A DNA stretch of 64,000 nt from Candidatus Poribacteria bacterium. Its GTDB lineage: Bacteria; Poribacteria; WGA-4E; WGA-3G. The position numbers and the translations under genes are program-made. Below, piece after piece: positions 24,569 to 41,717 of the stretch. Under the pieces are notes generated by a model. The model had not been told where the DNA came from. It searched no databases and saw only the letters and a list, made by a program, of their open reading frames with translations. The DNA lies in the NCBI GenBank assembly GCA_958295945.1, contig OY282386.1, positions 1,553,371 to 1,617,370 of the forward strand, written 5' to 3'. The number at the start of each line of letters is the position of its first letter. Position 1 is the first letter of the stretch.

Positions 24569-25588
24569 ATGCAAACACCACAACACGTTGACCAAATGGA
24601 TGCCGATGACGTTGCTGCGATTGATGAATTACGCGATGTCTACGCCCAGTTAAAAAAAGCACTTGCGAAAATCATAATTGGTCAGGAGCAAGTCATAGAA
24701 AATCTATCAATCTGTCTATTTTCACAAGGTCATGCGCTACTTATGGGTGTCCCCGGCTTAGCAAAGACACTTTTAGTAAGAAAGTATGCAGAAACAATGG
24801 CATTGGGGTTTAGCCGCATTCAGTTCACACCTGACCTTATGCCGATGGACATCACTGGTACTGATATTCTGCAAGAGATTCCTGGTGGCAGACGCGAGTT
24901 TGAATTTGTTAAGGGACCGCTTTTTGCTAACCTAATCCTCGCGGATGAGATTAACCGTGCTCCTTCCAAAACGCAAGCAGCAATGCTTGAGGCGATGCAG
25001 GAACACAAAATCACGGTAATTGGCAGAACCTATCAGTTAGATCCTCCGTTCTTCGTATTAGCTACGCAAAATCCGATTGAACAGGAAGGGACATATCCGC
25101 TACCAGAGGCACAATTAGACCGATTCATGTTTAGAATAGATGTGGATTATCCTGAGCGTTCTGAAGAGATCGAAATTGCTCGGACAACAACTGGCATGTC
25201 TTTGCCAGAGTTAGACCACGTCCTTACAGGTGATCATGTGATAGCGTTTCAAAATCTCGTTCGTCGTGTGCCTGTATCCGAACATATCTATGAATTCGCT
25301 GTTGATTTAGCGCGTAGTACCCGTCCTAAAAGCGATGCTGCGCCTGATTGGCTGAAACCGCTTGTAGCTTGGGGTGCTGGTCCTCGTGCAGTCCAATATC
25401 TTATCCTCGGTGCGAAGGCACGTGCAGCACTCAGTGGTAGTTATATGGCGCGCCTTGAAGATGTAGTCGCAGTAGCAAATCCGGTACTTGCACACCGCGT
25501 TATCACATCCTTTGCTGCCGAATCCGAAAATATCACAAGCCAAGATATCGTTGAACGTCTTGTTGAAGAGTTGTCTGAGCAGGGGTAA
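24569..25588 (+). CDS. MoxR-family AAA+ ATPase
   Basis: The product has 339 residues. Walker A is GVPGLAKT at about 60-67, Walker B is LILADEINRA, and FVLATQNPIEQEGTYPLPEAQLDRF is the sensor-1 and lid signature of MoxR ATPases. They act as chaperones that help insert metals or cofactors or assemble vWA-domain complexes, and are usually encoded next to a DUF58 protein and vWA membrane proteins, as here. It is the first gene of a long plus-strand block; the DUF58 start follows 3 nt after its stop. Its promoter region contains the heptamer array. Confidence 0.95.
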   Translation: MQTPQHVDQMDADDVAAIDELRDVYAQLKKALAKIIIGQEQVIENLSICLFSQGHALLMGVPGLAKTLLVRKYAETMALGFSRIQFTPDLMPMDITGTDILQEIPGGRREFEFVKGPLFANLILADEINRAPSKTQAAMLEAMQEHKITVIGRTYQLDPPFFVLATQNPIEQEGTYPLPEAQLDRFMFRIDVDYPERSEEIEIARTTTGMSLPELDHVLTGDHVIAFQNLVRRVPVSEHIYEFAVDLARSTRPKSDAAPDWLKPLVAWGAGPRAVQYLILGAKARAALSGSYMARLEDVVAVANPVLAHRVITSFAAESENITSQDIVERLVEELSEQG

Positions 25589-25591
25589 ACT

Positions 25592-26497
25592 ATGGCACTG
25601 CAACTCAAACGAGATTATCTCAATCAGAAGGTCCTGGAACGTCTCTCAACTTTACAACTACATGCTCGGTTACCGATGATAGGGAATGTGTCCGGTAAAC
25701 ATCGGAGTCCCATTCGTGGTTCAAGCCTTGAATTCGCAGAGTACCGTAAGTATGTGCCGGGTGATGATACCCGTAGATTGGATTGGCGTGCTTATGCTCG
25801 GAATGATCGCTATTACATCAAAGAATTTGAGGCAGACACAAACCTACGTTTATGTCTAATCGTTGATACCAGCGGATCTATGGGATTCGCATACAATGGT
25901 ATAAGCAAACTTGACTATGCGCGTCGTATCGGTGGTACATTAGCCTATATCGCCGCGCTGCAGGGTGATGCTGTCGGTCTCTACTGTGCAGGTACACAGT
26001 TCCACAAAGAAATCCCACCCAAGCGGAGTGCTACACACCTTAGTTTGGTTCTTGATGAACTCGGTTCTGTAGAACCTTCGGGTGAAACAGGTTTAGTTGA
26101 AGTGCTCCACCAAACCGCTGAACGCATCTCACAACGTGCGTTAATTATCATCATTTCCGATCTCTTCTTTGAGCCTGAAGTGGCAAGAAACTGCTTTGAG
26201 CACCTGCGATTCCGTAAGCACGATGTAGCAGTTTTTCATCTAATGGAGCAGAGCGAACTTGATTTTGAGTTTGATCGTCCCATGCGATTTGTTGATTTAG
26301 AGGGTGGTGAACCCGTATTAGCGGATCCAATTATTATCGGTGATCAGTATCGTCGTGCAATTGAAACGTATATTGAGAGCATGAACGAAGTTATCCGTGA
26401 CACCGAGATTGACTACAATCGTATCTGTATTGACGAAGATTACGGAGACGTATTAGCGAAATTCCTCCTGAGTAGAACTCCGAAAAAACGTGCCTAA
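25592..26497 (+). CDS. DUF58 (vWA-like) domain protein
   Basis: The product has 301 residues and is cytosolic. GSSLEFAEYRKYVPGDDTRR and LDWRAYARNDRYYIKEFEAD are the DUF58 signature. A vWA-type metal site follows in LIVDTSGSMGF (D-x-S-G-S), and IIISDLFFEPE is the later strand. These proteins are partners of MoxR and may deliver the ATPase to its targets. The gene begins 3 nt after moxR; the AGGGG before the moxR stop is its ribosome site. The block then has a 179-bp gap (26498-26676) with imperfect inverted arms (GGCGGTCAGTAGTCGGCTG and CTGACAGCTGAAAGCCGAT) and no gene. Confidence 0.93.
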   Translation: MALQLKRDYLNQKVLERLSTLQLHARLPMIGNVSGKHRSPIRGSSLEFAEYRKYVPGDDTRRLDWRAYARNDRYYIKEFEADTNLRLCLIVDTSGSMGFAYNGISKLDYARRIGGTLAYIAALQGDAVGLYCAGTQFHKEIPPKRSATHLSLVLDELGSVEPSGETGLVEVLHQTAERISQRALIIIISDLFFEPEVARNCFEHLRFRKHDVAVFHLMEQSELDFEFDRPMRFVDLEGGEPVLADPIIIGDQYRRAIETYIESMNEVIRDTEIDYNRICIDEDYGDVLAKFLLSRTPKKRA

Positions 26498-26676: not shown

Positions 26677-28689
26677 ATGAATTTTTTGCAACCTTTAATG
26701 CTTATAGCACTCCCACTGATGTTATTACCGGTCATCATTCACCTAATCAATCAACAACGGCACCGAACTATGCCGTGGGCAGCGATGATGTTTCTGATGA
26801 CTGCGAAACGCATGAGCAGAGGTATGGCACGCATTCGTCACATTCTTATATTACTCATGCGCACCCTTGCTATCGCTGCTTTAATATTTGCCATTAGCCG
26901 CCCCTTATCTGGCGGATGGTTAGGAAGTATTGGTTTAGCTAAACCCGATGTAACTATGGTTCTGCTTGACCGATCCGCAAGTATGGAAGCACAAGACCTG
27001 CAGGCTGGTGAATCTAAAAGATCTACTGGACTAAAAAGACTGGCACAATTGCTGGAACAAGGAGATTACGGAACACACTTGATTTTGATTGACGGTGCCA
27101 CAGGACAACTGCATGAAGTAGATTCACCGAAGGCACTGTTAAGTTTGCCAATGACTGAAGCGACTGCAACCAGTTCCAATATACCGGGTATGTATGAAAC
27201 TGCTCTGACCTATCTTAAGACAAACAATTCTGGACGCGCAGACGTATGGCTCTGTTCAGATTTGCAAGAAAGTGATTGGACTGTTGAAAGCGGACGTTGG
27301 GATGCATTGCGTGAAGAATTTGCCTTATTAGATGGTGTGCATCATTTCCTGCTTGCCTATGCAACGCCACCTTCAGATAACTTATCTGTTCGAGTAAAAA
27401 ACGTACTGCGGTGGCAACGCGGTAACGAAGCAGAACTGATTCTTGATGTGATGGTTCGTGCTGAAGGCAACACTGCTGCAATACGACAAGTCCCGATTGA
27501 GTTTGAAGTCAACAACATTCGTTCTGTGGTGGAAGTTGAACTTGATGTGCGTGGTGCATCTTTAAAAGGACATCGTATTCCAATTGACGGGGAACTTACC
27601 TCAGGATGGGGGTCTGTTGGGTTACCGGGAGATGCCAACCCGTTGGACAACCGATTTTACTTCGTATTTTCTGAACCCCCGGTACGCAAATCGGTTATTG
27701 TCAGCGATGATGCAAGCATTGGTGAATCATTCCGACGCGCCCTTGATATACCACCAGATTCTCGACTTCAACATCAAGCAGATGTAGTGTCTGTGAACCG
27801 TGTTGGAGAAATCGACTGGGAAAATACAGGGTTATTGATCTGGCAGGCTGCTTTGCCTAACGGGTTAGCGGCAGAACAGATTCAGAATTTTGTCAACAGT
27901 GGACGGGTCGTTATTTTCTTCCCACCGAGTCAGCAGAATGCGGGTGACAACATGTATGATACCCGTTGGAGTGACTGGCAGAATCCGAGTGATGGTCAAC
28001 TTTTCAATGTCTCATGGTGGCGTAGCGATGCAGATTTATTGGCACGTGCAGAAAGTGGTGATTCCCTGCCACTGAACGAACTCCGCACCTATCGTTATCG
28101 TTCCCTTGAGAGTAGCGGAACAACGTTAGCAAGGTATGGTGCTGATATTCCACTATTAACCCGTATAAATACTGATCGTGGTGGTGCATATTTTTGTAGC
28201 ACGCTACCGACGGCACAATACTCTTCCCTTGAACGTGATGGTGTGGTGTTTTATGTCATGCTGCAACGTGCGTTAGCTGAAGGGTGTCGTGCATTGGCTG
28301 AGGCATCTCAACGGGATGCTGCACCTGATGCTCTGACTGATCGGGAACAGTGGAAAGCAGTCGCTCCCGAAGGCGATACAGTTTCTGTATCACAACGTGG
28401 TATGCATGCAGGTGTCTACCGAGATGAGACATATTGGGTAGCGGTGAATCGTAGTGAAACTGAAGATACTGCTAAAGCTGCCGGAGTAGAGGCTGTTGAC
28501 GCGCTGTTTAATGGCATATCATATCGGAGAATAGATGTAGAGGTGGGGGATACCTCCTCCTTAGCGAATGAACTCTGGCGTATCTTCCTCATCGCGATGC
28601 TGGTGGCACTGATTGTGGAAGCGGTTTTGAGTTTGCCGAGTAAGCGGGTTGAGAGTGAGCCGATTGGTGATTTTGCGGCTGCGGATTGA
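26677..28689 (+). CDS. BatA-like membrane protein with vWA domain
   Basis: The product has 670 residues. The N-terminal BatA/aerotolerance-type region is clear: FLQPLMLIALPLMLLPVIIH, INQQRHRTMPWAAMMFL, and a second helix (LILLMRTLAIAALIFAISRP). A vWA domain follows with the metal motif VLLDRSASMEAQ and ADVWLCSDLQESDW. The middle part looks like beta-sandwich domains and a glutamine amidotransferase-like segment (LLIWQAALPNGLAAEQIQNF), and a final helix (LWRIFLIAMLVALIVEAVLS) anchors the C-terminus. It is a likely substrate or partner of the MoxR/DUF58 pair. The next gene, a STAND NTPase, starts 27 nt on. Confidence 0.88.
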   Translation: MNFLQPLMLIALPLMLLPVIIHLINQQRHRTMPWAAMMFLMTAKRMSRGMARIRHILILLMRTLAIAALIFAISRPLSGGWLGSIGLAKPDVTMVLLDRSASMEAQDLQAGESKRSTGLKRLAQLLEQGDYGTHLILIDGATGQLHEVDSPKALLSLPMTEATATSSNIPGMYETALTYLKTNNSGRADVWLCSDLQESDWTVESGRWDALREEFALLDGVHHFLLAYATPPSDNLSVRVKNVLRWQRGNEAELILDVMVRAEGNTAAIRQVPIEFEVNNIRSVVEVELDVRGASLKGHRIPIDGELTSGWGSVGLPGDANPLDNRFYFVFSEPPVRKSVIVSDDASIGESFRRALDIPPDSRLQHQADVVSVNRVGEIDWENTGLLIWQAALPNGLAAEQIQNFVNSGRVVIFFPPSQQNAGDNMYDTRWSDWQNPSDGQLFNVSWWRSDADLLARAESGDSLPLNELRTYRYRSLESSGTTLARYGADIPLLTRINTDRGGAYFCSTLPTAQYSSLERDGVVFYVMLQRALAEGCRALAEASQRDAAPDALTDREQWKAVAPEGDTVSVSQRGMHAGVYRDETYWVAVNRSETEDTAKAAGVEAVDALFNGISYRRIDVEVGDTSSLANELWRIFLIAMLVALIVEAVLSLPSKRVESEPIGDFAAAD

Positions 28690-28716
28690 AGAATAGACAT
28701 ATATTAGGAGGATAAA

Positions 28717-31700
28717 ATGAGTATTGAAACCATTTTTTCCGTAAAAAATGAACATCTTAGTCGACTTGATCAAAAGACATCAGTAGAATTTTTTCAGAAG
28801 CTGCTTTGGGCAGAAGCTCGAAGACTTGGAGTGAAAATTAGCAAGATTAATGTTTCCAATTGGGTTAATGTCCCTGACGGTGGCGTTGATGCTAATGTAA
28901 ATGATGCACAAATAGCAGTGGGACAAGGGGTAATTAAACAAGGCAAAACAAGCTATCAAATTAAATCTGGAGACACGTTTGAACCGTGGCAAGAGGCAGT
29001 TATCAGGAAAGAACTTTTTAGAAATAAAACACCTGAACAGCAGAATCTTGGTGAAAGTGTTAGAGCGTGCCTTGATGAAAACGGTACTTATATTTTAGTT
29101 TGCACTGGCATTGATCCTACAGAACTCCAACGAGAAAAGGCACGTTCTCATATTGAAGATTACTTTAAACTATGTGATTGTCCAAAGCCCAAAGTTGAGG
29201 TGTTCACTCAGAGCAACCTGAAGGGTTTTCTTGAGGTGTTTCCATCATTAGCATTGTTGGTTAATGGAAATGCCAGGGCTACTTTTCAAACGCATCAGAG
29301 TTGGTCTGAAGATGCAACTATGCGGCTGCCATTTGTTTCAGGTGAAGCACAGAAAGATCAGATTTTAGAAATCCAAGATGAATTAAGACAAAACAACGAT
29401 ACAGTGCACCTACGCGTATTAGGTGAACCTGGCATCGGAAAAACTAAACTTGTCTTAGAAGCAACGAAAGTTGATGATTTATCTTCACATGTTGTTTACT
29501 GTATCGCTGCTCAATTTCGGGACAGTATCTTGATGAATGAAATTCTCAGAGATGATAATGGTTTTTCTGCCATTTTAATTATAGATGAATGTAACCAAGA
29601 CAGTAGATCATATATCTGGAATAAACTAAAACATCGCGGTTCAAGGATTAAATTGATCACTATCTATAATGATTATGAGGAAAAATCTGGAGATATTAAC
29701 TACTATGATGCCCCACCGCTGGACAACGAACAAATTAGTAGCATTATTCAGAATTATATAAATATATCCAATGCTGAAGCGAGCAGATGGTCTGAACTCT
29801 GTAGTGGTTCTCCAAGAGTTGCACATGTCATCGGTGAAAATTTAGTAAATCATCCAGAAGATTTGCTTAAACCTCCCGGAACAGTTGATATCTGGGAACG
29901 TTATATTGTTGCGGGTGATGATCCAAATAGCGAACAGACAGAACAACACAGATTGCTACTTCAATATCTTGCACTTTTTAAGCGGTTCGGATATGAGCGA
30001 TCCGTAGCTTCGGAGGCAGAAGAAATTGAGAAAAAAGTTAAGGAAGCCGACAATCGAATTACTTCGGACAAATTTAAATCAATAATCCACCGACTCAGGG
30101 AGCGGAAAATTCTTCAAGGTGAGTTTACGCTCTACATTACTCCAAAAGCACTTCATATTAAACTATGGACACAGTGGTGGGAAATTCATCGTACGACATT
30201 CAACCTTGAAGGATTCATTCAGAATATAAAACCAGAATTAGTTGAGTGTTTCTATGATATGTTTGTCTATGCAGCAGAATCAGAAGTGACATCAGAAGTA
30301 GTCAAGGAACTTCTTGGACCAAATGGTCCTTTCCGGGATAATGAAAATCTGAAAACAAGGTTGGGTAGTCGTTTTTTTCTTGCACTGACTGAAGCAGATC
30401 CAGATTCTGCTTTAAGATGTTTGATACGAACGATAGGCACTTGGGATAAAGACAACCTTTTGGAATTTACAAAGGGTCGGAGGAACGTGGTATGGGCACT
30501 TGAAAAGATTGCTATATGGCAAAAGTTGTTCCCCGATGCAGCAAGATTGCTCCTTGCACTCGGCGAAGCGGAAAATGAAAGAATTGCAAACAATGCAAGC
30601 GGAGTGTTTGCTGAACTTTTCTCATTAGGACCGGGCGCAGTAGCCCCTACAGAAGCATCGCCTATAGAACGTTTACCTGTCTTGAAAGAAGCATTTGAAT
30701 CGGGATCAAAAGAACGACGAAAGCTGGCATTGAACGCCTGCAATAAAGGTTTGCAGGCGGATCATTTTTCACGGATTTCTGGTGCAGAAAATCAAGGACT
30801 ACGTGGAACACCTAAACTCTGGAATCCCAAAACATACGATGAGTGGTGGGATGCCTACCGTCAAATTTGGCAACTCTTATTTCAACAATTAGAGTATTTG
30901 CCTGAAGATGAACGTGAAGAAGCTGTAGAAATAATGCTTGGACGGGCAGGAGCGATTGCTAGGATTCGCAAATTAAGTGATATGGTTGTGGACACAGTCA
31001 GAAGAATTACTGAAAACAGATATGCAAACGAAAAACAGATTATTGAGACAATAAGCCAAATTTTGTTTCATGATGATTCTTATGTGGACAATAAAGGTCT
31101 ACCACCCGAAATTAGACAGAGTTTTGAAAAAATTCGAGACGAATTAATTGGATCTGATTTCCACTCGCTTATGCAACGGTATGTTGGGTTAGATCTTCTT
31201 GAAGACGAACTTATAGAACATAGGGATGGCGTTAATCCTACTCAACCTTATCTTGAAGAACTCGTTGAGCAATCTATAGAAAATCCTAGACTATTGGAAT
31301 CAGAATTATCATGGCTCGTGACTACCGAAGCAAAGAATGGAAATAGGTTTGGGTTTTCACTCGGGCAGAGAGATGAGTCCCTTTCGCTTTTACCAACGCT
31401 TCTTAATGCTCAACGAGACGCGGGAGACAACACAAGCCCTTATTTCCTAGGTGGTTATTTTCATGCTATCTTTGAAAAGGACTTGGCACAATGGGAACAA
31501 CAACTTGACGCACTCTGTGCGGATACTACGCTTAACACAATAGTTCCATCACTCACACATTACTCGGGTCTAACCGATCAAGCAGGATATAGAATTCTCA
31601 AATTGGCAGAGAACGGTATTATTAATATTGATGAATTTGAAATATTCAAATACAAGAACTCGCTTATCAGTCTATCCAAGAGTGCATTTCAATCTTGGAT

Positions 31701-32535
31701 AGAATTTCTTTTGATTAATACCGATAAGTCAGCTATAGACATTGCACTAAACCTATTCTATAATTACTATATACTACGAAAATCAGACTACACGTTACCA
31801 TACGATTTTACGTTCCGTCTCCTTTCACATCCAGAACTGTTTAAAGAATCTGATGATTCTCGGTATGATACAATGACTGATTTCTATTGGACAGAAACAG
31901 CAAAAGTTTTCTTATCACTACATCCACGCAAGGCTTTAGAGATAGTCCAACTCATGTTAGTTTCCTTTGGAAGCGATAAAACGATTTTTGATTCTTTCTC
32001 ACAAAGTTGCTCTTTTCTTACTGAAGCGACCAAAAAACACCCCGCGGAGGTTTGGGAGTACGTTAGTAAATACTTGGGCAGTAAAGATAATTTTTCAAGA
32101 ACTTTATCCATAGGAAACTGGCTTAGAGAAACTGACCTTTCAGAATCAGAAAAAGAAAAAGGGGCATTAACCTTAATCCCTCGCGAAAATATCTGGGAAT
32201 GGGTTGATAGAGACGTGGAAAATCGCGCATGGTATCTTGCCAGCGAATTTGTTCCCAAAACCCTTTTGTTAGAAGAATGGCAAGATTCGTTAGCACGCGA
32301 TCTTCTTGTAAGATATGGAGATCGAGAAGACGTTAGAAGTACATTGATATCAAATTATTCAACAGAAAGTTTCTGGGGACCTGCTAGTTTACACTATGAT
32401 GAGAAACTAGAAAAATTAATTGACATTCAGAATATTGACAGAAACAACAATGTGAATCGTTGGATTAACGAATTTTTAACCTTTCTTGAAGAGCAAATTG
32501 AACATTCAAAGATCCGCGAAGAAAGAATGTCTTAA
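28717..32535 (+). CDS. Avs-like STAND NTPase with N-terminal nuclease-like domain
   Basis: The product has 1272 residues and a strong ribosome site (AGGAGG, 28706-28711). The first 110 residues contain NVPDGGVDANVND (Asp58) and SYQIKSGDTFEPW (Q81-I-K83), the D-x(n)-Q/E-x-K pattern of Mrr/Cap4-type nucleases. Walker A is LGEPGIGKT at about 235-243 and Walker B is ILIIDEC at about 286-292. From 400 onwards the protein is helical and repeat-like with no recognised domain, as in the sensor part of antiviral STAND (Avs) proteins. That architecture suggests a prokaryotic immune sensor in which target binding triggers DNA cleavage. It lies between two vWA-type genes of the MoxR cluster, has no link to them in function that I can see, and by eye is more AT-rich. 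I am confident of the ATPase and less so of the nuclease. Confidence 0.7.
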   Translation: MSIETIFSVKNEHLSRLDQKTSVEFFQKLLWAEARRLGVKISKINVSNWVNVPDGGVDANVNDAQIAVGQGVIKQGKTSYQIKSGDTFEPWQEAVIRKELFRNKTPEQQNLGESVRACLDENGTYILVCTGIDPTELQREKARSHIEDYFKLCDCPKPKVEVFTQSNLKGFLEVFPSLALLVNGNARATFQTHQSWSEDATMRLPFVSGEAQKDQILEIQDELRQNNDTVHLRVLGEPGIGKTKLVLEATKVDDLSSHVVYCIAAQFRDSILMNEILRDDNGFSAILIIDECNQDSRSYIWNKLKHRGSRIKLITIYNDYEEKSGDINYYDAPPLDNEQISSIIQNYINISNAEASRWSELCSGSPRVAHVIGENLVNHPEDLLKPPGTVDIWERYIVAGDDPNSEQTEQHRLLLQYLALFKRFGYERSVASEAEEIEKKVKEADNRITSDKFKSIIHRLRERKILQGEFTLYITPKALHIKLWTQWWEIHRTTFNLEGFIQNIKPELVECFYDMFVYAAESEVTSEVVKELLGPNGPFRDNENLKTRLGSRFFLALTEADPDSALRCLIRTIGTWDKDNLLEFTKGRRNVVWALEKIAIWQKLFPDAARLLLALGEAENERIANNASGVFAELFSLGPGAVAPTEASPIERLPVLKEAFESGSKERRKLALNACNKGLQADHFSRISGAENQGLRGTPKLWNPKTYDEWWDAYRQIWQLLFQQLEYLPEDEREEAVEIMLGRAGAIARIRKLSDMVVDTVRRITENRYANEKQIIETISQILFHDDSYVDNKGLPPEIRQSFEKIRDELIGSDFHSLMQRYVGLDLLEDELIEHRDGVNPTQPYLEELVEQSIENPRLLESELSWLVTTEAKNGNRFGFSLGQRDESLSLLPTLLNAQRDAGDNTSPYFLGGYFHAIFEKDLAQWEQQLDALCADTTLNTIVPSLTHYSGLTDQAGYRILKLAENGIINIDEFEIFKYKNSLISLSKSAFQSWIEFLLINTDKSAIDIALNLFYNYYILRKSDYTLPYDFTFRLLSHPELFKESDDSRYDTMTDFYWTETAKVFLSLHPRKALEIVQLMLVSFGSDKTIFDSFSQSCSFLTEATKKHPAEVWEYVSKYLGSKDNFSRTLSIGNWLRETDLSESEKEKGALTLIPRENIWEWVDRDVENRAWYLASEFVPKTLLLEEWQDSLARDLLVRYGDREDVRSTLISNYSTESFWGPASLHYDEKLEKLIDIQNIDRNNNVNRWINEFLTFLEEQIEHSKIREERMS

Positions 32536-32559
32536 CACATTCGGAGACACAAAGAAAAC

Positions 32560-34767
32560 ATGCAAGACACACAAGGACACCTTGAATTCTTTTCCAACAG
32601 TTCTGTTATAACTTTGGGAGTCATTATTATCATTGTAACCGCTGCATTGTGCTGGTATGCATGGCATCGCAGTGGATATCGCAAACGTATCGGGTGGCTT
32701 GAACTACTCCGGTTCGTCCTCGTCTGCCTTGTGATTCTCACCCTCAATCAACCCGAATGGTTAGAATCACAACCACCAGAACTACGATCTACGCTTGCTG
32801 TACTTTGGGATAAATCTAATAGCATGAAAACCGAGGACATTCTTGTAGACCCGGACACCACCGTTGAACGAAAAAGTCGTGCAGAAACGATACAACCACT
32901 AATGTCTGAAGAGGCATGGAAATCTGCAGATGATACGGAACTAAATGTTGTATTTGAATCGTTCTCATCACGCTTAGCCCCCGCAGAAGAAGGAACAGAT
33001 ATTAACGCAGGACTGACACACATTCTGGAAAATCACAATAATCTGCGTGGTGTAGTGCTGCTCTCGGATGGCGATTGGAATGTTGGGGATTCACCTGAGA
33101 AAGCTGCAACTCGGTTCCACATGAAAGAGGTTCCCGTTTTCACCGTAGGTGTCGGCAGTGAAGTGCCATTACCCGATCTTGAGTTAGTTAGTATGGACGC
33201 GCCAACTTACGGGGTAACAAAGAAACAACTCCGCATTCCGTTTGTCGTTCGCAACACTTTAGGCCAAGACAGAGACGTGAATCTCACATTGAGCATCAAT
33301 GGGGAAGCCACGACTACTAAAACCATTACAGTTCCTGCTATGGGACAAGCACAAGATAATATGGCTTGGACACCACAAGATACAGGTGAATATGACATAT
33401 CCTTGCGAATTGCGAAAGATATTCAGGAGTTGATCCCAGAAAATAATGAACTTTCTGCTCCCATATCTATTCGCAAGGAACAGTTGAAAATCCTTGTCAT
33501 AGATTCTTTTCCGCGTTGGGAGTATCGTTATCTACGGAACGCTCTTGAACGCGATGCGGGTGTTGATGTAACGTGCCTGTTATTTCATCCTAAATTGCCA
33601 CAGGTTGGTGGAGGACGTGCTTATATCAAGCGGTTTCCTGATGCCAGAGAACTCAGCAAATTTGACGTAGTGTTTCTTGGAGATGTAGGTATTGCTCCGG
33701 ATCAGTTGACGACTGAACAAGCACAGGATTTACGACAACTTGTCAGTGCACAAGCATCGGGTATCGTCTTTTTACCCGGACGCACGGGGGCACATGAATC
33801 ATTAACTACCGGTCCGCTTGCCGATCTATATCCTGTCGTTTTAGACCCAGTCACACCGAACGGTGTCGGCTCAAGTGTCCAAGGATATTTCGCTCTCACC
33901 GAACCCGGGCAACGAAGTTTGTTGACGCGTCTCGGAGATACCGATATTGGAAATAGTGATGTGTGGCGCACGTTACCGGGTTTCTTCTGGTATGCTGGCA
34001 TAAGACGTGCGAAAGCAGGAACAGAAGTATTGGCTGTACACGATCAAGCTTCCACAGTGTCTGGACGTGTGCCACTCATCGTTACGAAAACGTATGGCAC
34101 AGGTAAAGTGCTGTTCATGGGAACGGACAGTGCATGGCGTTGGCGGCATGGTGTTGAAGACAAATACCACTACCGTTTCTGGAGTCAAGTGGCACGTTGG
34201 ATGGCATATCGACGACAGATGGCGCAGAGTGAATTGATACGAATGTTTTACTCTCCTGACCGACCTCATGTTGATGATGTTCTTACCTTAAACGCAAATG
34301 TAATTGACAACTTCGGTGGACCACTGGAAAGAGGGACAGTCGTGGTGCAAGCAATTGCTCCTTCTGGTAAAACAGAGACAATCCGACTGCAACCGGGTGT
34401 AGAAGATGCGTTAGGATTGTTCATCGGCACTTTTACTCCGAAAGAAGCAGGGATCTATCGTCTTGTAGCGACCAGTAGTGAAACAGGGGCATCCGTTCAA
34501 ACTGAGCTTTCCGTGCAAGGCTTAAATCGGGAACAACAAGGACGACTGGCACGGTTTGATGTCTTAGAAGAAATCGCAAATATCACTGGAGGAAAATTAG
34601 TTTCAGTTTCTGAGGTAGGGACATTACAAGAACATCTCGCTGCCCTACCAGAACCCGAACCGATTGTTAAACGGACGCGTATCTGGGCAAATCCGTATTG
34701 GGGTGGTTTACTGATCTTGCTGCTTGGATTATTCTGGGTTGCACGTAAAATGGCAGGTACGATATGA
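32560..34767 (+). CDS. Membrane vWA/GATase-like protein of the MoxR cluster
   Basis: The product has 735 residues. Two N-terminal helices (VITLGVIIIIVTAALCWYAW and LELLRFVLVCLVILTL) are followed by a vWA-like domain with LAVLWDKSNSMKTED and GVVLLSDGDWNVGDSP. Then come a beta domain (PDLELVSMDAPTYGVTKKQL), a class I glutamine amidotransferase-like region (LKILVIDSFPRWEYRYLRNA; VVFLGDVG; GIVFLPG), and a C-terminal helix (YWGGLLILLLGLFWVARKM). Such proteins accompany BatA-like genes in MoxR clusters and are probably envelope proteins. It lies just after the STAND gene and before the HsdR-N-like gene. Confidence 0.83.
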   Translation: MQDTQGHLEFFSNSSVITLGVIIIIVTAALCWYAWHRSGYRKRIGWLELLRFVLVCLVILTLNQPEWLESQPPELRSTLAVLWDKSNSMKTEDILVDPDTTVERKSRAETIQPLMSEEAWKSADDTELNVVFESFSSRLAPAEEGTDINAGLTHILENHNNLRGVVLLSDGDWNVGDSPEKAATRFHMKEVPVFTVGVGSEVPLPDLELVSMDAPTYGVTKKQLRIPFVVRNTLGQDRDVNLTLSINGEATTTKTITVPAMGQAQDNMAWTPQDTGEYDISLRIAKDIQELIPENNELSAPISIRKEQLKILVIDSFPRWEYRYLRNALERDAGVDVTCLLFHPKLPQVGGGRAYIKRFPDARELSKFDVVFLGDVGIAPDQLTTEQAQDLRQLVSAQASGIVFLPGRTGAHESLTTGPLADLYPVVLDPVTPNGVGSSVQGYFALTEPGQRSLLTRLGDTDIGNSDVWRTLPGFFWYAGIRRAKAGTEVLAVHDQASTVSGRVPLIVTKTYGTGKVLFMGTDSAWRWRHGVEDKYHYRFWSQVARWMAYRRQMAQSELIRMFYSPDRPHVDDVLTLNANVIDNFGGPLERGTVVVQAIAPSGKTETIRLQPGVEDALGLFIGTFTPKEAGIYRLVATSSETGASVQTELSVQGLNREQQGRLARFDVLEEIANITGGKLVSVSEVGTLQEHLAALPEPEPIVKRTRIWANPYWGGLLILLLGLFWVARKMAGTI

Positions 34768-34941
34768 TACTCCGCTTCTACTGAATTGTTCCTCTTTGTT
34801 TGATCTTCTCATGGAAATTTCTCATAATAACTGTTATCATACTGACAATTGAACAAAACACACCACGGGAAGAGGCTACCGTTTAACTTTGAATCATTTT
34901 AATCAAAAACAATTTAGATTTATTGGAGATATAAAACGTTA

Positions 34942-35931
34942 ATGACACTTGTAGAAGATATTGATGATATACGTAATAATTTAGAAAAAAACGCATATAA
35001 AGATGAGGCTGCTGTTACCAATAGTATTGTAAATAGGTTGCTTCATGCGTTGAAATGGCCTACGTTCAATCCTAAAATTATCATCCATGAATATTCAGTA
35101 GAGAATCGGAGAGTTGACTTGGCACTTTGTCATCCACCAGAAAATCCCATCATTTTTATTGAAGTTAAGCAGGTTGGAAACATTCAAGGAGCAGAGAAGC
35201 AGCTGTTTGAATATGCTTTTATTGAAGGGGTTCCTATTGTTGTTCTTACTGATGGACAGAAATGGCGTTTTTTTCACCCCGCAGGTACCGGGAATTATAA
35301 AGACCGTCTGGTTCACGAATTGGATCTTATCAGTGGAAAAAGTGATGAAATTTCCGAACGTCTAAACAGATACCTAAATTATGAAAATGTAAAGACAGAA
35401 GAGGTGGTGCAAGTTATTGCTGAAGACTATCAGAATATCGTCTATGAAAGACTGATCCAAAAAGGATTACCAAAGGCATGGAACCTTTTAATAAGAGAAC
35501 ATGATGAATTTCTACTAGAAATAATTGTAGAAAAGACAATAGAAATTTGTGGTAAGCGTCCTACTCCAGAGCACGTGATAACATTTCTGCAAAACCTATC
35601 GCAGCTACCAGTAGAGCAAAAACCTACCCCAAATGTGGATGTTGTTGATAAGCAACCAAGGCACACCTATGAATATGCTGGAGAGCATTTAACAGGAAAG
35701 TTGGCAAGACCTCTTATTATAGAATTATTTGGAGATAAAGGTAAAATAAAAAAGCAGGATATTATAAAGGTAGTAACTCAAACTCATAGAGATCGCGGAG
35801 GATTGGACGCAAATGCTGCAATTGATCAACTTTTCAATAGTGCATTGCAAGGTCTTGAAAAACAAAGTTCTGCGAAAAATATTGAGAAAGGATCAGGTAT
35901 TTGGGAAGTGTACAAAGATCCGAAGAAATAA
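34942..35931 (+). CDS. HsdR-N-like PD-(D/E)XK protein
   Basis: The product has 329 residues. The N-terminal 150 residues match the type I restriction HsdR-N fold: EAAVTNSIVNRLLHALKWP, then NRRVDLALCHPPENPIIFIE (Asp59, Glu74) and VKQVG (Lys76), then GVPIVVLTDGQKWRFF. The second half, PRHTYEYAGEHLTGKLARPL and onwards, looks like a small winged-helix region. No helicase, methyltransferase or specificity gene is adjacent. It lies 29 bp before the DarT-macro fusion gene on the same strand, so the two are probably co-transcribed. Whether it acts as a nuclease or as a structural partner is not known. Confidence 0.65.
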   Translation: MTLVEDIDDIRNNLEKNAYKDEAAVTNSIVNRLLHALKWPTFNPKIIIHEYSVENRRVDLALCHPPENPIIFIEVKQVGNIQGAEKQLFEYAFIEGVPIVVLTDGQKWRFFHPAGTGNYKDRLVHELDLISGKSDEISERLNRYLNYENVKTEEVVQVIAEDYQNIVYERLIQKGLPKAWNLLIREHDEFLLEIIVEKTIEICGKRPTPEHVITFLQNLSQLPVEQKPTPNVDVVDKQPRHTYEYAGEHLTGKLARPLIIELFGDKGKIKKQDIIKVVTQTHRDRGGLDANAAIDQLFNSALQGLEKQSSAKNIEKGSGIWEVYKDPKK

Positions 35932-35960
35932 AATAAATATTTCTGACAATAGGTAAAACC

Positions 35961-37130
35961 ATGCCAAAATTAGACATAAGAGAACTCTACTACATTACGC
36001 ACATAGACAATCTACCATCCATCCTTGCACACGGTGTCTTGTCTCACGCAAAGATGGAATCAGAAGGCGTACATGCTACACCTATTTATGATGCAGATAT
36101 CGTTAGCAAACGCAATCATATAATGACTCCTGATAAAAGTAATCTCTGGTCTTACGCTAATCTCTACTTTCAACCACGCAATGCAATGATGTATCGTGTT
36201 GTCCATGAAAAAGAATCCAAAAACCTTGCTGTTGTCGGTGTAAGTCCAAAGGTGTTGACTGAACAAGATGCTTTTATCACGGATGGGAATGCCGCACACG
36301 AAACAACACAATTTTACTATCCTTCCAAAGGTCTGGAAATGCTTCGACAACAGTGGTCAATAATCAAAAACGATTGGTGGAATAGAGATGACGGTTCCAA
36401 ACGTAAAATTATGGCAGAATGTCTAATTCCCAAACATGTCAAACCTGAATATATTCAAAATATCTATGTTGCAAACAATTCAGTACGAGATGCAATTCAG
36501 AAAAATATTGGAGATGTTAATATTGCTGTTAGTTCCGAACCCGATATGTTTTTCCAACCGGACAGCCGGACAAAAATAGGAGACAACATTTCTTTAATTG
36601 ATGGGGATATGTTCTTCTCTAACTTACAGACATTGACAATCAGCGTAAATCTACAAGGGGTCATGGGAAAGGGTTTAGCTTCGCGTGCGAAATACCAATT
36701 TCCCGATGTTTATGTAGCATATCAAGATGTGTGTAGAGCAAAACGCATCACAGCGACAAGACCGCATCTCTATAAGCGTGAAAGTTCATTAGATGAGGAA
36801 TTGGCTGATGTTGGAGCACCACTTATTGCCCCGAATGCTGTAAAGTGGTTTCTGCTTTTCGCAACAAAACGTCATTGGAAAAACAACTCACGCTTGGACG
36901 ATATTGAAGGTGGTCTTGCCTGGGTTCGCGACAATTATCAAACACAAGGAATTCAATCTCTTGCAATGCCTGCACTCGGTTGTGGATTAGGAGGACTTGA
37001 TTGGAAAAAGGTCGGTCCCTTGATGTGCAAATATTTACACGGAATCAACATATCGGTCGCAATATATCTTCCACGAGAACACCAAATTGAGACACAATAT
37101 AAAACAGCATCACATTTACTATCACTTTAA
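35961..37130 (+). CDS. DarT-DarG fusion: DUF4433 ADP-ribosyltransferase plus macrodomain
   Basis: The product has 389 residues and joins a toxin domain to an antitoxin domain. Residues 1-205 match DarT (DUF4433), which ADP-ribosylates thymidine in single-stranded DNA: YYITHIDNLPSILAHGVLSH, SKRNHI with Arg51, LYFQPRNAMMYRV, ITDGNAA, and KIMAECLIP with the catalytic-type Glu153. Residues 208-375 match the DarG macrodomain, which removes that mark: ISLIDGDMF, VNLQGVMGKGLASRAKYQFP, FATKRHWKNNSRLDDIEGGL, and AMPALGCGLGGLDW. Key residues appear present in both halves, so the fusion could both write and erase. In known DarTG systems these are usually two genes, the toxin first. It follows the HsdR-N-like gene by 29 bp. 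Confidence 0.85.
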   Translation: MPKLDIRELYYITHIDNLPSILAHGVLSHAKMESEGVHATPIYDADIVSKRNHIMTPDKSNLWSYANLYFQPRNAMMYRVVHEKESKNLAVVGVSPKVLTEQDAFITDGNAAHETTQFYYPSKGLEMLRQQWSIIKNDWWNRDDGSKRKIMAECLIPKHVKPEYIQNIYVANNSVRDAIQKNIGDVNIAVSSEPDMFFQPDSRTKIGDNISLIDGDMFFSNLQTLTISVNLQGVMGKGLASRAKYQFPDVYVAYQDVCRAKRITATRPHLYKRESSLDEELADVGAPLIAPNAVKWFLLFATKRHWKNNSRLDDIEGGLAWVRDNYQTQGIQSLAMPALGCGLGGLDWKKVGPLMCKYLHGINISVAIYLPREHQIETQYKTASHLLSL

Positions 37131-37176
37131 TGGGAACTGACTTTTTTATTAAAAGTCGCACTAAAGGAGAACTTCA

Positions 37177-40100
37177 ATGAACCAAACACCATCACAAAAT
37201 AACGGGGTAAATCTACCCCCAAGAATGAAAAAAGCATTAGAACAATACAAAAAACGGGTATGGATCATCAAACTTGCCGAAGGCACATTAGCAGCGATCT
37301 TTGGACTCATCGTTTCATATCTCATTGTGTTTGGCTTAGACCGGTTGATTGATACCTCTGCCCTTCTGCGCGCACTCATCCTGATAGTCGGCATGGGCGG
37401 TATGGTAATTTTCCTGCCACTGAAATACTACAAATGGGTGTGGCGAAATCGGCAATTAGAAGGCATTGCCAAACTATTGCAACATAAGTTCCCCCGTTTT
37501 GGTGATCATGTGCTTGGTATCGTAGAACTTGCATCGGAAAAGTCAGATCAATCATCAAGTCCGGCGTTGGTTGCAGCCGCAATGCGTCAAGTTGATGAAG
37601 AGGTTGCCAAACACAATCTCAAAGATGCTGTGCCGAATCCTCGCCACCGACGTTGGGCATTGGCAGTAGGTTTACCAATGCTCCTTGTCATCATTGGGAT
37701 AGTCATTATCCCGGCAACGACTAACAACACCTTAGCACGGTGGCTAACCCCGTGGCGAAACGTTGAACGATGGACATTTGCACAATTAAAGGGCAAACCA
37801 GATCCACGCGTCGTCGCCTACGCTGAACCCTTTGATGTTGAAACACAACTGAAAGATGAATCCCCATGGAAACCTGAAACCGCTGAAGCACGATACGCGA
37901 AGCAAGAACCTGTAGTCGCCGAACGAGATGGATCTACTTACAAATTTCAACTGCCACCGCAAACAGAGAAAGGAAAAGTCAAGATGCGGGTGGGAGATGC
38001 AAGACGTTCCATCCCCGTTGAACCGAAATTACGCCCGGCACTCAAGGAACTTATTGCAAACGTCCAACTCCCCGACTATCTACTACGTGAAGAACCGAGA
38101 GTAGATGATGTACGCGGTGGCATAGTTAGCTTAGTCCAAGGCAGTTCCGCCACCTTGCAAGCGACAATCACACGAGAAATCTCAGAAGCAACGTTAAATA
38201 ACCGTCCACAGAAAGTGGATGGAGCAAAAATAACAACAGAACCAATTGCCGTGGAAAAAACAACAGAGATGGAATTAACATGGCGTGATCAATACGGACT
38301 CACTGCAAGTGAACCACAGGTAGTGCAATTTGAACTACAAGAAGATGCTGAACCAACGATTGCTATCACGAAGCTAAAAAACAATCAAGTTGTGCTTTCT
38401 ACAGAAGTGCTCACATTTGAAATCCAATCAGCGGATGACTTTGGTGTGAAACAGGTCGGTATAGAATGGGAAGGTATTGAGAATCCAATCCAAAACCCAG
38501 AACCGGCAATCGGAGAGAAAGCCGTGTCCTCAGGGTCGCCAATATCGGAATCACTAATCGTTCCCGCGACATTCTCCGTTGAACGTGAAAATATACCACC
38601 ACAAAGTCTGCGTCTGCGTGCTTTTGCGGAGGATTATTTTCCTAACCGTGAACGTATCCGTTCACCACAAATTGTGCTCCACGTGCTTTCCCCATCAGAA
38701 CACTTCAAGTGGTTAATCGGACAGATGCAGCTCTGGGCAGGTGCAGCAAAGGATGTACACGATAAAGAATTGCAATTACACGAAACCAATCGTGAAATCC
38801 AAGACCTACCACCTGAAGCACTTGACGATCCAGCCCAACGTAAAAAATTACAGGAACAAGCTGCATCAGAACGTGCTAATGCCGCAAAACTTGATAGTCT
38901 CATTGAAAGCGGTAAAGAGTTGGTCCAGGAAGCTGCAAAAAACAGTGAGTTTGACGCAGAACAGCTCCAATCTTGGGGAGACATGCTCAAACAATTAGAG
39001 GAGATAGCAGGGAAGCAGATGCCTTCTGTTGCAAATTTACTTGCACAAGCATCCGAAGCACAAGGACAGAGCAGCCAAAAACCATCAGATAGCAGTCAGC
39101 AAAGTCCATCTTCCTCAAGTAGTAGCAGTCAACAATCGCCAAGCGAAAACCAAGATGAACAGCAGCAAAACCAAGCATCAAACGGACAATCTCAGCAGTC
39201 TGACCAACAACAGAAAGATTCAGAACAACAACAAAACCAAGCATCGGGTAATAAATCACAATCTTCTGGCAAACCACAGGAAGGTTCAGGAGACGATACG
39301 AAAAAGTATGGACCTGATAGTTTTGTGCCACCTGAAGGGACAGACGCGGAATCTGAGGATCCTGAAGATCCGAACAAACGTCCCGATTCTGTCAGTGTGA
39401 ATCGGAGTAAACCACCACAAGGAGGCGAACAAGGTAAACCTTCACCCACGAATCCAACACCTGGACTTTCCGATGTGGAATCGGGTTTCAACAAACCTGA
39501 GAAACCAACTGAAGCACCACCATCACAGGTCGTTGGTGGATTAGCCATCCCTAATACGACGTTGATGGGTAGCGGCAGAGAAGATGAAGGTGAAGATGAA
39601 AACGCAGAATCACCTCCTGCTGAAGAACTCGTGGTACAAGCTGTTGAAGAACAGAAGGAATTGTTGGACGCTTTTGATAAACTATCAGACGAGATGAAAA
39701 AACTTTTGGTCAGTTTTGAAAATAGCACATTCGTGAAACGATTGAAGGCAGCCTCACGAAGGCAAATTGACATCGCTACAGATCTCAACAAAATTGACAC
39801 CTTCGGATTGTCTGACAGAGGCACAAAAAATCGAGATGTCCGGAAACGTTTAGCCGAAATGGAATCCAATGAATCCAAAAAGGTAACCACCATCATTCAA
39901 GATATGGCAGCCTATACTGATCGTCGTCCTAATGATAACTACCTACGTGTCCTGGCAGAGATGGAAGACGCTTCTGTATCAAACCAGATGAGCGAACTTG
40001 TCAGATCAATCAACAGAAATTATGTCGGGCAATCTACAATTGAAGCAGAATACTGGGCGGATACGTTGGATAGATGGGCTGAACAGTTAGTAGACCCATT

Positions 40101-40743
40101 ACCCGATGCCCCGCCTCCAGAAGGCGGAATGATGGAACTGCCAAGTTTGCCACCTGAAATTGTTTTAGAGGTGTTGCGTATCATCAATCGTGAAATTCAA
40201 TTACGCGAGGAAACGCGCGAAACTGAAAACGCAAAAGACACGCTCAATTCCGATAAATATTATGCGCGAAGCGAAGGTCTGAGCGATACACAATACGAAA
40301 TCGCCGAGGATACACTTGAGGTGGCAAGACAGATAAGTCTGTTACCAGAGTTTAATACACGACGTATCAGACAGCAATACGCCAAAGTCAGTGCTGCAGC
40401 TGAGGTGATGGAGGAAGCAGAGACAATCCTTGCCAAACCTGAAACAGGTCCCGAAGCAATCGCAGCTATATCGGAAGTGATTGAAATCCTACTTCAAACG
40501 CAACGCATGCCAAATACACCTAGTGGCGGAGGAGGCGGTGGTGACACGCCAGGTGGAAGTGGAAATGTCTTTGCACAATTAGTTTCTGCAATGACACTCG
40601 GAAGTGGCAGAGGAGACGACTCAGGTCAGGCATTTATTGAAAAACGCGCACCGAAACAAGCAATAGGCAAAACTGGGCGCGTACTACCAGAAGAATTCAG
40701 GCAAGGATTAGACGCATATTTCAATGTCTTAGAAGGCAACTAA
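37177..40743 (+). CDS. DUF4175-type membrane protein
   Basis: The product has 1188 residues with a good ribosome site (AAAGGAGAA). Two N-terminal hydrophobic segments (LAAIFGLIVSYLIVFGL; ALILIVGMGGMVIFLPL) and a third (VGLPMLLVIIGIVIIP) precede a large soluble part. A low-complexity Ser/Gln-rich stretch (39060-39260; SSQQSPSSSSSSSQQ) splits two helical regions, and the end is Gly-rich (PSGGGGGGDTPGG). DUF4175 proteins commonly follow MoxR-DUF58-BatA genes in Planctomycetes-like genomes, so this is the natural next gene of the cluster and was separated from it by the inserted defence-like genes. Several long frames on the opposite strand here are shadows. Confidence 0.8.
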   Translation: MNQTPSQNNGVNLPPRMKKALEQYKKRVWIIKLAEGTLAAIFGLIVSYLIVFGLDRLIDTSALLRALILIVGMGGMVIFLPLKYYKWVWRNRQLEGIAKLLQHKFPRFGDHVLGIVELASEKSDQSSSPALVAAAMRQVDEEVAKHNLKDAVPNPRHRRWALAVGLPMLLVIIGIVIIPATTNNTLARWLTPWRNVERWTFAQLKGKPDPRVVAYAEPFDVETQLKDESPWKPETAEARYAKQEPVVAERDGSTYKFQLPPQTEKGKVKMRVGDARRSIPVEPKLRPALKELIANVQLPDYLLREEPRVDDVRGGIVSLVQGSSATLQATITREISEATLNNRPQKVDGAKITTEPIAVEKTTEMELTWRDQYGLTASEPQVVQFELQEDAEPTIAITKLKNNQVVLSTEVLTFEIQSADDFGVKQVGIEWEGIENPIQNPEPAIGEKAVSSGSPISESLIVPATFSVERENIPPQSLRLRAFAEDYFPNRERIRSPQIVLHVLSPSEHFKWLIGQMQLWAGAAKDVHDKELQLHETNREIQDLPPEALDDPAQRKKLQEQAASERANAAKLDSLIESGKELVQEAAKNSEFDAEQLQSWGDMLKQLEEIAGKQMPSVANLLAQASEAQGQSSQKPSDSSQQSPSSSSSSSQQSPSENQDEQQQNQASNGQSQQSDQQQKDSEQQQNQASGNKSQSSGKPQEGSGDDTKKYGPDSFVPPEGTDAESEDPEDPNKRPDSVSVNRSKPPQGGEQGKPSPTNPTPGLSDVESGFNKPEKPTEAPPSQVVGGLAIPNTTLMGSGREDEGEDENAESPPAEELVVQAVEEQKELLDAFDKLSDEMKKLLVSFENSTFVKRLKAASRRQIDIATDLNKIDTFGLSDRGTKNRDVRKRLAEMESNESKKVTTIIQDMAAYTDRRPNDNYLRVLAEMEDASVSNQMSELVRSINRNYVGQSTIEAEYWADTLDRWAEQLVDPLPDAPPPEGGMMELPSLPPEIVLEVLRIINREIQLREETRETENAKDTLNSDKYYARSEGLSDTQYEIAEDTLEVARQISLLPEFNTRRIRQQYAKVSAAAEVMEEAETILAKPETGPEAIAAISEVIEILLQTQRMPNTPSGGGGGGDTPGGSGNVFAQLVSAMTLGSGRGDDSGQAFIEKRAPKQAIGKTGRVLPEEFRQGLDAYFNVLEGN

Positions 40744-40778: not shown

Positions 40779-41717
40779 ATGACTGATGGAGAAAAGAATA
40801 CTATATCGTTTGAGGTATTTGCAAGTTTCAAACGTATAGAACAAGGAAATCCAATCATCTCTCTACAGCCACCGCTTTGGGCAGCAGCAACACATGCGAT
40901 TGTTGTTGATGATTCGGTTCACTATATCTGGTGTAAACGCTATGTTAATCGTCGGTGGGTGATGATGCACGCTACAGCCCCTATTAGCGACATTACAAAC
41001 ATTACACAGGATAAACGAAACCCTATTATAATACCTTCAACAGACGGTTTTGACAATGCAGCGGTTGAGTACCCTTTTCCATTTCTGAATCCCGCTGATG
41101 GTAAATACTACATGTATTATCGCGGGAAAGGAGAAACAACACCTGAACAGACAGGTCTGCTTGTAAGCGACGGTGATTTGGGTGAATGGAAACGCGTCCA
41201 ACACACGCCTGTCATTCCTGCGGATACTGAACACGAATTACACGGTTCCACCCATCCATCAGTAGCAATAGATGGTGATATGATACACATTGTTTATACA
41301 GGTAAGGCAACGAAGTCGTTCGGAGAAGGATTAACGATGTGCCATGCAACCGCGCCAACGAATAATCCAGCGATGGTAACTAAAAATCCTGCCAATCCTG
41401 TTTTCACTGGTAGTGGCGAAGCATGGGATAGTAAATCCGTTCGTGAGACTGAATTGTTCAAAGGACCGGAGTATTTCCATATTCTCTATGGTGGCTTTGA
41501 TGGAGAAGTCTGGCGTATCGGACATGTGCGTACTCGTGATTTTCTTAACTATGAACCGAACCCGTACAACCCTGTATTTACACCCTCGGACGATCCTGAT
41601 GATTTTGACTGCGACGGTGTCTTAACTGGACAAATCCTTGAAATTGGTAACACTTATATCATGCTCTATGCTGGTAAGAAAGGAAATGAATGGCAAACTG
41701 GTTTGGCAACAATATGA
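40779..41717 (+). CDS. Five-bladed beta-propeller glycosidase-like protein
   Basis: The product has 312 residues and is preceded by GAGGAAAC. The repeating strand pattern fits GH43/GH62/GH130-like five-blade propellers: PPLWAAATHAIVVDDSVHYI, EYPFPFLNPADGKYYMYYRG, GSTHPSVAIDGDMIHIVYTG, ELFKGPEYFHILYGGFDG, and GVLTGQILEIGNTYIMLYAG. Acidic residues at the ends of these blades could be catalytic, but the subfamily is not certain. There is no signal peptide, so it may act on an oligosaccharide in the cytosol. It lies 35 bp after the DUF4175 gene. Confidence 0.72.
   Translation: MTDGEKNTISFEVFASFKRIEQGNPIISLQPPLWAAATHAIVVDDSVHYIWCKRYVNRRWVMMHATAPISDITNITQDKRNPIIIPSTDGFDNAAVEYPFPFLNPADGKYYMYYRGKGETTPEQTGLLVSDGDLGEWKRVQHTPVIPADTEHELHGSTHPSVAIDGDMIHIVYTGKATKSFGEGLTMCHATAPTNNPAMVTKNPANPVFTGSGEAWDSKSVRETELFKGPEYFHILYGGFDGEVWRIGHVRTRDFLNYEPNPYNPVFTPSDDPDDFDCDGVLTGQILEIGNTYIMLYAGKKGNEWQTGLATI

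Follow-up and report, generated by a model that had tools for sequence, protein, structure and literature searches.

How do predicted defence genes come to lie inside a conserved MoxR-vWA gene block, and does that block represent a place at which such genes are repeatedly gained and lost? The question is raised by a 64-kb piece of DNA (positions 1553371-1617370; hereafter referred to as the window) from the genome of a Candidatus Poribacteria bacterium, which consists of a single contig of 5.34 Mb and whose relatives are symbionts of sponges. Our analysis favours, with a probability of roughly two in three, a reading in which the two junctions flanking the vWA-like gene of the block are turnover slots that work without mobile elements and are enriched for predicted anti-phage genes.

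The block encodes, in this order, a MoxR-type AAA ATPase of 339 aa (24569-25588; Pfam AAA_3, 7.9e-61, and AAA_lid_2), a DUF58 protein of 301 aa (25592-26497; Pfam DUF58, 5.1e-42), a BatA-like membrane protein of 670 aa (26677-28689; Pfam BatA, 2e-15, and TIGR02226, 1e-20), a second vWA-like protein of 735 aa (32560-34767), a large protein of 1188 aa (37177-40743) and a GH32-like protein of 312 aa (40779-41717; Glyco_hydro_32N, 3.3e-7). In the window genome, it is interrupted twice. Slot 1, the variable junction between the BatA-like gene, its left boundary, and the vWA-like gene (28690-32559), contains the gene for a STAND-like NTPase of 1272 aa (28717-32535). Slot 2, the variable junction between the vWA-like gene, which separates the two slots, and the gene of the 1188-aa protein, its right boundary (34768-37176), contains genes for an HsdR_N-like predicted PD-(D/E)xK nuclease of 329 aa (34942-35931) and a DarT-macro fusion protein of 389 aa (35961-37130). 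All of these genes lie on the plus strand, as described in a sequence-only reading of the window, whose open reading frames we recovered in full. The short gaps that it reported are likewise real, measuring 27, 24, 174, 29 and 46 bp from the BatA-like gene through that of the 1188-aa protein. Its family labels were borne out for the MoxR, DUF58, BatA-like, HsdR-N-like and DarT-macro genes, whereas two labels proved weaker than proposed: the 1188-aa protein, labelled DUF4175, has no Pfam match at 0.01, and the second vWA gene has a VWA score (0.00056) that falls below the cut-off while CARDB (1.2e-6) passes. We likewise saw no mobile element inside the block: the proteins scanned from MoxR to the GH32-like protein include no transposase or integrase. 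No tRNA genes were found within the 64-kb window. The GC content of the cargo is 36.6-40.0%, compared to 45.4-47.3% for the block genes from MoxR to that of the 1188-aa protein.

The NTPase in slot 1 combines an N-terminal Mrr-like region, marked by the motifs DGGVDA (residues 54-59) and YQIK (80-83), with a Walker A motif (GEPGIGKT, from residue 236) and a Walker B motif (ILIIDE, from residue 286), all of which are retained with few substitutions in 17 homologues. It thus has the make-up of an Avs/STAND protein, a Walker A and B NTPase with an N-terminal effector region, as judged from motifs and, for the fold, from a low-confidence model: the prediction for the N-terminal 480 residues has a mean pLDDT of 60 and gave no Foldseek match at a threshold of 0.001, leaving Avs4 (8dgf) as a weak lead to a possible fold relative. 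Searches with the sequence returned no match in Pfam and nothing meaningful in the PDB. In PADLOC, the protein matched PD-Lambda-4_A over residues 5-767 (3.8e-31), and it is similar to PD-Lambda-4 and Avs-type STAND proteins in its nuclease-like N-terminal and NTPase regions. However, we rejected membership in PD-Lambda-4, because the match stops at residue 767 of 1272, leaving the C-terminal part unmatched, and because the second gene of that system is absent, the NTPase gene being flanked by block genes without PADLOC matches. Some copies of the NTPase are paired with an Eco57I-like methylase encoded approximately 70-170 bp upstream or overlapping with them. In genomes G006 and G020, the methylase gene lies about 70 bp upstream of the NTPase gene, which suggests a methylase-partnered system whose partner is missing in the window genome. 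The Eco57I-like methylase family itself is unusually large, with 14 matches in G019 and 17 in G021 that are spread over many contigs.

In slot 2, the HsdR_N-like protein exceeds the curated cut-off of its family (HSDR_N, 8.9e-8) and contains the sequence VDLAL...FIEVK. It does not represent a complete type I HsdR subunit, given that its 329 aa comprise only the HsdR_N-like nuclease region and that neither HsdM nor HsdS is encoded among the block neighbours. Its gene occupies slot 2 only in the window genome and is most likely a new arrival; in 71 of 117 genomes, homologues occur at various other places. The DarT-macro protein unites a predicted thymidine ADP-ribosyltransferase with a DarG-type macrodomain. 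It aligns over nearly its full length with a solved fusion protein of the same architecture from a different organism (7omu; 5.3e-130), in which the DarT and DarG-type domains also share one chain. Its DarT domain (9.4e-51) contains two residues that are invariant in seven aligned copies, R51 and E153, which we take to be the NAD-binding arginine and the catalytic glutamate, respectively; a GVMGKG region is conserved as well. The fused macrodomain (Macro, 8.5e-6) was recognized by the PADLOC model of DarG over residues 210-381 (6.2e-44), with the NCBIfam DarG model remaining below its cut-off. DarTG is an established anti-phage toxin-antitoxin system. Judged by their families, the cargo genes most likely encode stand-alone proteins that would act in phage defence.

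We mapped the surroundings of vWA-like orthologues with 66-96% identity in about 53 genomes, nearly all of them metagenome assemblies of Candidatus Poribacteria, which cover two genera and some more distant relatives. The order MoxR, DUF58, BatA, vWA, 1188-aa protein and GH32-like protein is kept in nearly all of them, including the position of the MoxR gene, the orthologues of the 1188-aa protein and the placement of the GH32-like gene behind them, and it is mainly the two gaps that vary, each being empty, scarred or filled with different cargo at fixed boundaries. Within the genus, slot 1 is interrupted in 5 of 14 and slot 2 in 9 of 15 observations. In most relatives, the block carries no cargo and the slot 1 gap measures 20-300 bp. 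An NTPase gene is found in slot 1 of the window, L002, L007, L035 and L038, and also in L024, whose contig ends before BatA; the other occupants of this slot are an Eco57I-like methylase (L005), an IVP-type protein (L013) and TnpB (L044). Slot 2 contains the DarT-macro gene in eight loci, counting one fragment, and these copies form a single clade; in L006, it is preceded by a 208-aa gene and a GIY-YIG (T5orf172, PDC-S57) gene. Other loci have a DpnI-type HTH fragment (L004) or lectin-like pairs (L007 and L009) in slot 2, and 16 genomes of the second genus carry a GFO/IDH oxidoreductase gene. Part of the slot 2 cargo, namely the oxidoreductase and the lectin-like pairs, is thus unrelated to defence, and slot 2 does not qualify as a defence slot in the 16 genomes that bear the oxidoreductase gene. 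The sequence-only reading had proposed a recurring landing place for immune genes, which should carry different cargo between the same boundaries from one related genome to the next and which would have to be abandoned if the same three genes were consistently present in distant relatives. Different cargo indeed occurs at these boundaries, far more often than at control sites, and distant relatives keep the block without the three genes. The notion of a recurring site thus survives, but that of fresh landings does not extend to the NTPase and the DarT-macro fusion, each of which seems to have arrived once, long ago, and to have since been inherited, altered by domain exchange and lost in places.

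In one clade (G006, G012 and G015), the block itself is broken into three places, with breaks at both slot junctions. Because three separate assemblies agree, an assembly error is unlikely. In its new surroundings, the vWA gene has trmE-like and dioxygenase-like neighbours, as recognized by eye. Behind it, there is no extra gene in G012, whereas G015 has a DarT-macro gene together with type III Res-like and Mod-like genes, and G006 has an Eco57I-like methylase and the NTPase. The BatA gene is followed by HsdS in G012 and by a patatin in G015, and a D12-class methylase precedes the gene of the 1188-aa protein in G006. Two peculiarities of the same clade concern the block genes: the 1188-aa protein is encoded by two open reading frames 15 bp apart, as if by two genes (L161, L162 and L163 in G006, G012 and G015), and an HtrA-like gene (by eye) lies between DUF58 and BatA (L169-L171). 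Elsewhere, in L018 (G011), a CotH copy is inserted between MoxR and DUF58.

Are the two slots special, or do Poribacterial operons accept insertions nearly anywhere, in genomes that are rich in defence genes? Compared with controls from the same genus (other block junctions, a paralogous vWA locus and two nuo operons; 327 observations in total), the slots show interruptions in 14 of 29 versus 37 of 327 observations (p 4e-6, uncorrected for relatedness) and contain defence-type cargo in 12 of 29 versus 3 of 327 (Fisher p 2.9e-12, uncorrected for relatedness, with the defence label assigned by us from family matches and the control inserts scanned in part). Interruptions do occur at the paralogous vWA locus (16/53) and in the nuo operons (18/122 and 2/103), and the block may therefore exemplify a tendency of these genomes at large. 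All three defence-type control cases, moreover, come from the paralogous vWA locus and consist of RM or Abi-like genes; there, L185, L192 and L188 (G008, G001 and G006) yielded an N6/N4 methylase, AAA_15, an AbiJ-type protein and a Type ISP enzyme. However, the other junctions of the block are interrupted in only 1 of 49 observations, without a defence gene, and the scanned inserts of the two nuo sets gave WD40, BNR, one WYL match or nothing, with no restriction, toxin-antitoxin or Abi family among them. General looseness alone is thus an unlikely account; because operon interruption is common in Poribacterial genomes, we rather regard the block as a pronounced example of a widespread tendency. 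Insertions might also persist under selection for a steady or inducible transcript supplied by the block, a proposal that we hold only tentatively. The cargo is co-directional with the block, except for TnpB in L044, the NTPase gene starts 27 bp 3' of the BatA-like stop codon, and four junctions lack a forward terminator-like site, such that the cargo could possibly be read from the block transcript. Yet 32 of 35 control inserts are co-directional as well, which led us to discard co-direction as evidence of a shared transcript, and promoter and terminator scans of the region came out close to shuffled sequences, with 45 promoter-like matches versus 38.4 (sd 5.1) and hence no clear excess. One promoter-like stretch, AATAGTGTATAATTAAA, is found 3' of the vWA gene in L004, L006, L008 and L011, before different slot 2 cargo or scars, and hints at promoters of the cargo's own.

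The route by which the slots change is reflected in scars and in pieces of duplicated host genes next to the cargo. In L010, the start and a short tail of the NTPase gene remain while its middle is gone; DarT fragments are left in L003, L007 and G006, and L008 and L011 retain remnants of the DpnI-type gene of L004. In L013, an 89-bp stretch 3' of the DarT-macro gene repeats the vWA 3' end at 83%, and in L016, the NTPase gene is directly followed by remnants of a second vWA copy that derive from its start, middle and end. Recombination via the flanking gene is consistent with both duplications, although these could also have arisen by tandem duplication in place, without any incoming DNA. Alternatively, a cryptic mobile element or site-specific recombinase might target the end of the vWA gene, as the copy adjoining the cargo in L013 and the TnpB gene in L044 would allow. 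We consider this very improbable, because the remaining annotated cargo lacks integrases and transposases, the L016 scar spans several parts of the vWA gene instead of one fixed site, and a repeat of the L013 type was found at no other locus. Still more improbable is a functional tie to the block, in which the chaperone-like MoxR and the vWA proteins would remodel or switch the immune proteins. MoxR-vWA conflict systems are reportedly described in the literature, and the cargo of G006 and G015 has stayed next to the vWA gene despite the separation of the block into three places. Against such a tie, the block is free of cargo in most relatives, genes for ten NTPase homologues and for many DarT fusions lie elsewhere without it, the cargo families are mutually unrelated, and the linkage is explained by one DNA segment moving as a whole. 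The earlier suggestion that MoxR acts on the cargo is thus not supported, as the cargo families occur without the block and as it is the vWA or BatA gene beside which the cargo stays in the three split genomes.

The history of the NTPase is mosaic. In a tree of the whole protein, all seven vWA-linked copies form one clade relative to ten copies from elsewhere (100/100). Nevertheless, the host sisters G000 and G016 share 96% identity in the vWA protein and only 69% in the NTPase, and a sister relationship of their NTPases is rejected (AU p 7e-6). G016 and G006, in turn, are 85% identical in the NTPase overall and 82% in the vWA protein, but the NTPase identity changes abruptly from 68-75% over residues 1-200 to 90-99% over most of residues 241-680. 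For residues 600-1272, the vWA-linked copies again form one clade (100/100) that splits roughly by genus, whereas for residues 241-540 such a clade is rejected (p 2.8e-49), with a copy from elsewhere (G030) joining G016 and G006; the tree of residues 1-200 gives no resolution. Repeated independent landings of the vWA-linked copies are incompatible with a C-terminal part that forms one clade and follows the split of the genera, and vertical descent alone is incompatible with the G000/G016 conflict and the tree of the central domain. Because the part-wise trees conflict and the identity shifts abruptly, we regard the NTPase as an old resident with swapped domains. It is tempting to speculate, although the odds are against it, that slot 1 is a receptor locus fed by recombination, in which the C-terminal part stays with the site across two genera while exchange with copies located elsewhere repeatedly renews the NTPase and effector parts. 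If so, a housekeeping operon would provide a fixed address for a diversifying innate immune receptor.

Taken together, the slots probably turn over mainly by general recombination that involves the conserved neighbours or alleles of the cargo already in place, independently of an integrase. We infer that incoming chromosomal DNA would pair with the BatA-like gene, the vWA-like gene or a resident cargo allele, thereby installing new cargo or new domains at the same place, and that the cargo would later decay through internal deletion. In the window, slot 1 would then contain an old, site-bound STAND-like receptor, composed of a predicted nuclease, an NTPase and a sensor, with exchanged domains, and slot 2 an old DarT-macro fusion together with a newly arrived HsdR_N-like nuclease. 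The role of this cargo in defence is suggested by its family memberships.

Sites of this kind are already known. Hotspots of horizontal transfer that lack mobile elements, are flanked by core genes and change by recombination at these flanks have been described previously (Oliveira et al. 2017, PMC5635113). The block resembles them in its conserved flanks with differing gene content and in the scarcity of integrases and transposases, TnpB in L044 being the sole exception among the scanned cargo. It differs in that its slots lie in a co-directional gene block, are two and adjacent, span two genera, are enriched for defence genes and bear scars of the flanking gene. Similarly, the cDHS1 and cDHS2 sites of Pseudomonas aeruginosa are fixed chromosomal sites with conserved flanks and changing immune systems (PMC10250203), features shared by the block. 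However, these sites measure 1-224 kb, with a median of 26 kb for cDHS1, are located near tRNA or tmRNA genes and contain mostly mobile genes (PMC10250203), whereas the slots reach at most about 5 kb, with no tRNA gene in the window and almost no mobile genes. The place within an operon, the two adjacent slots, the genus-wide span and the site-bound mosaic receptor make the block a variant of this known kind. It offers a small, clean case, free of mobile elements, of immune-gene turnover by gain, exchange and loss within a conserved operon in an uncultured symbiont of sponges, and its scars point to how this turnover works. Slots within operons are easily missed in searches for defence islands, and the junctions of conserved operons could yield more defence genes.

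Planctomycetota and Verrucomicrobia keep the block as well. A script detected extra open reading frames at 16 of 96 junction observations in this set, mostly small ones, some of which resemble PIN, IVP and GxxExxY proteins by eye; no large defence cargo was seen at the block by eye, and L148 has one 4-kb insert with three open reading frames. In some Planctomycetota (L111-L113), the block is 55-72% identical, with several genes exceeding the values of the other loci from these two groups, which may reflect transfer of the whole block.
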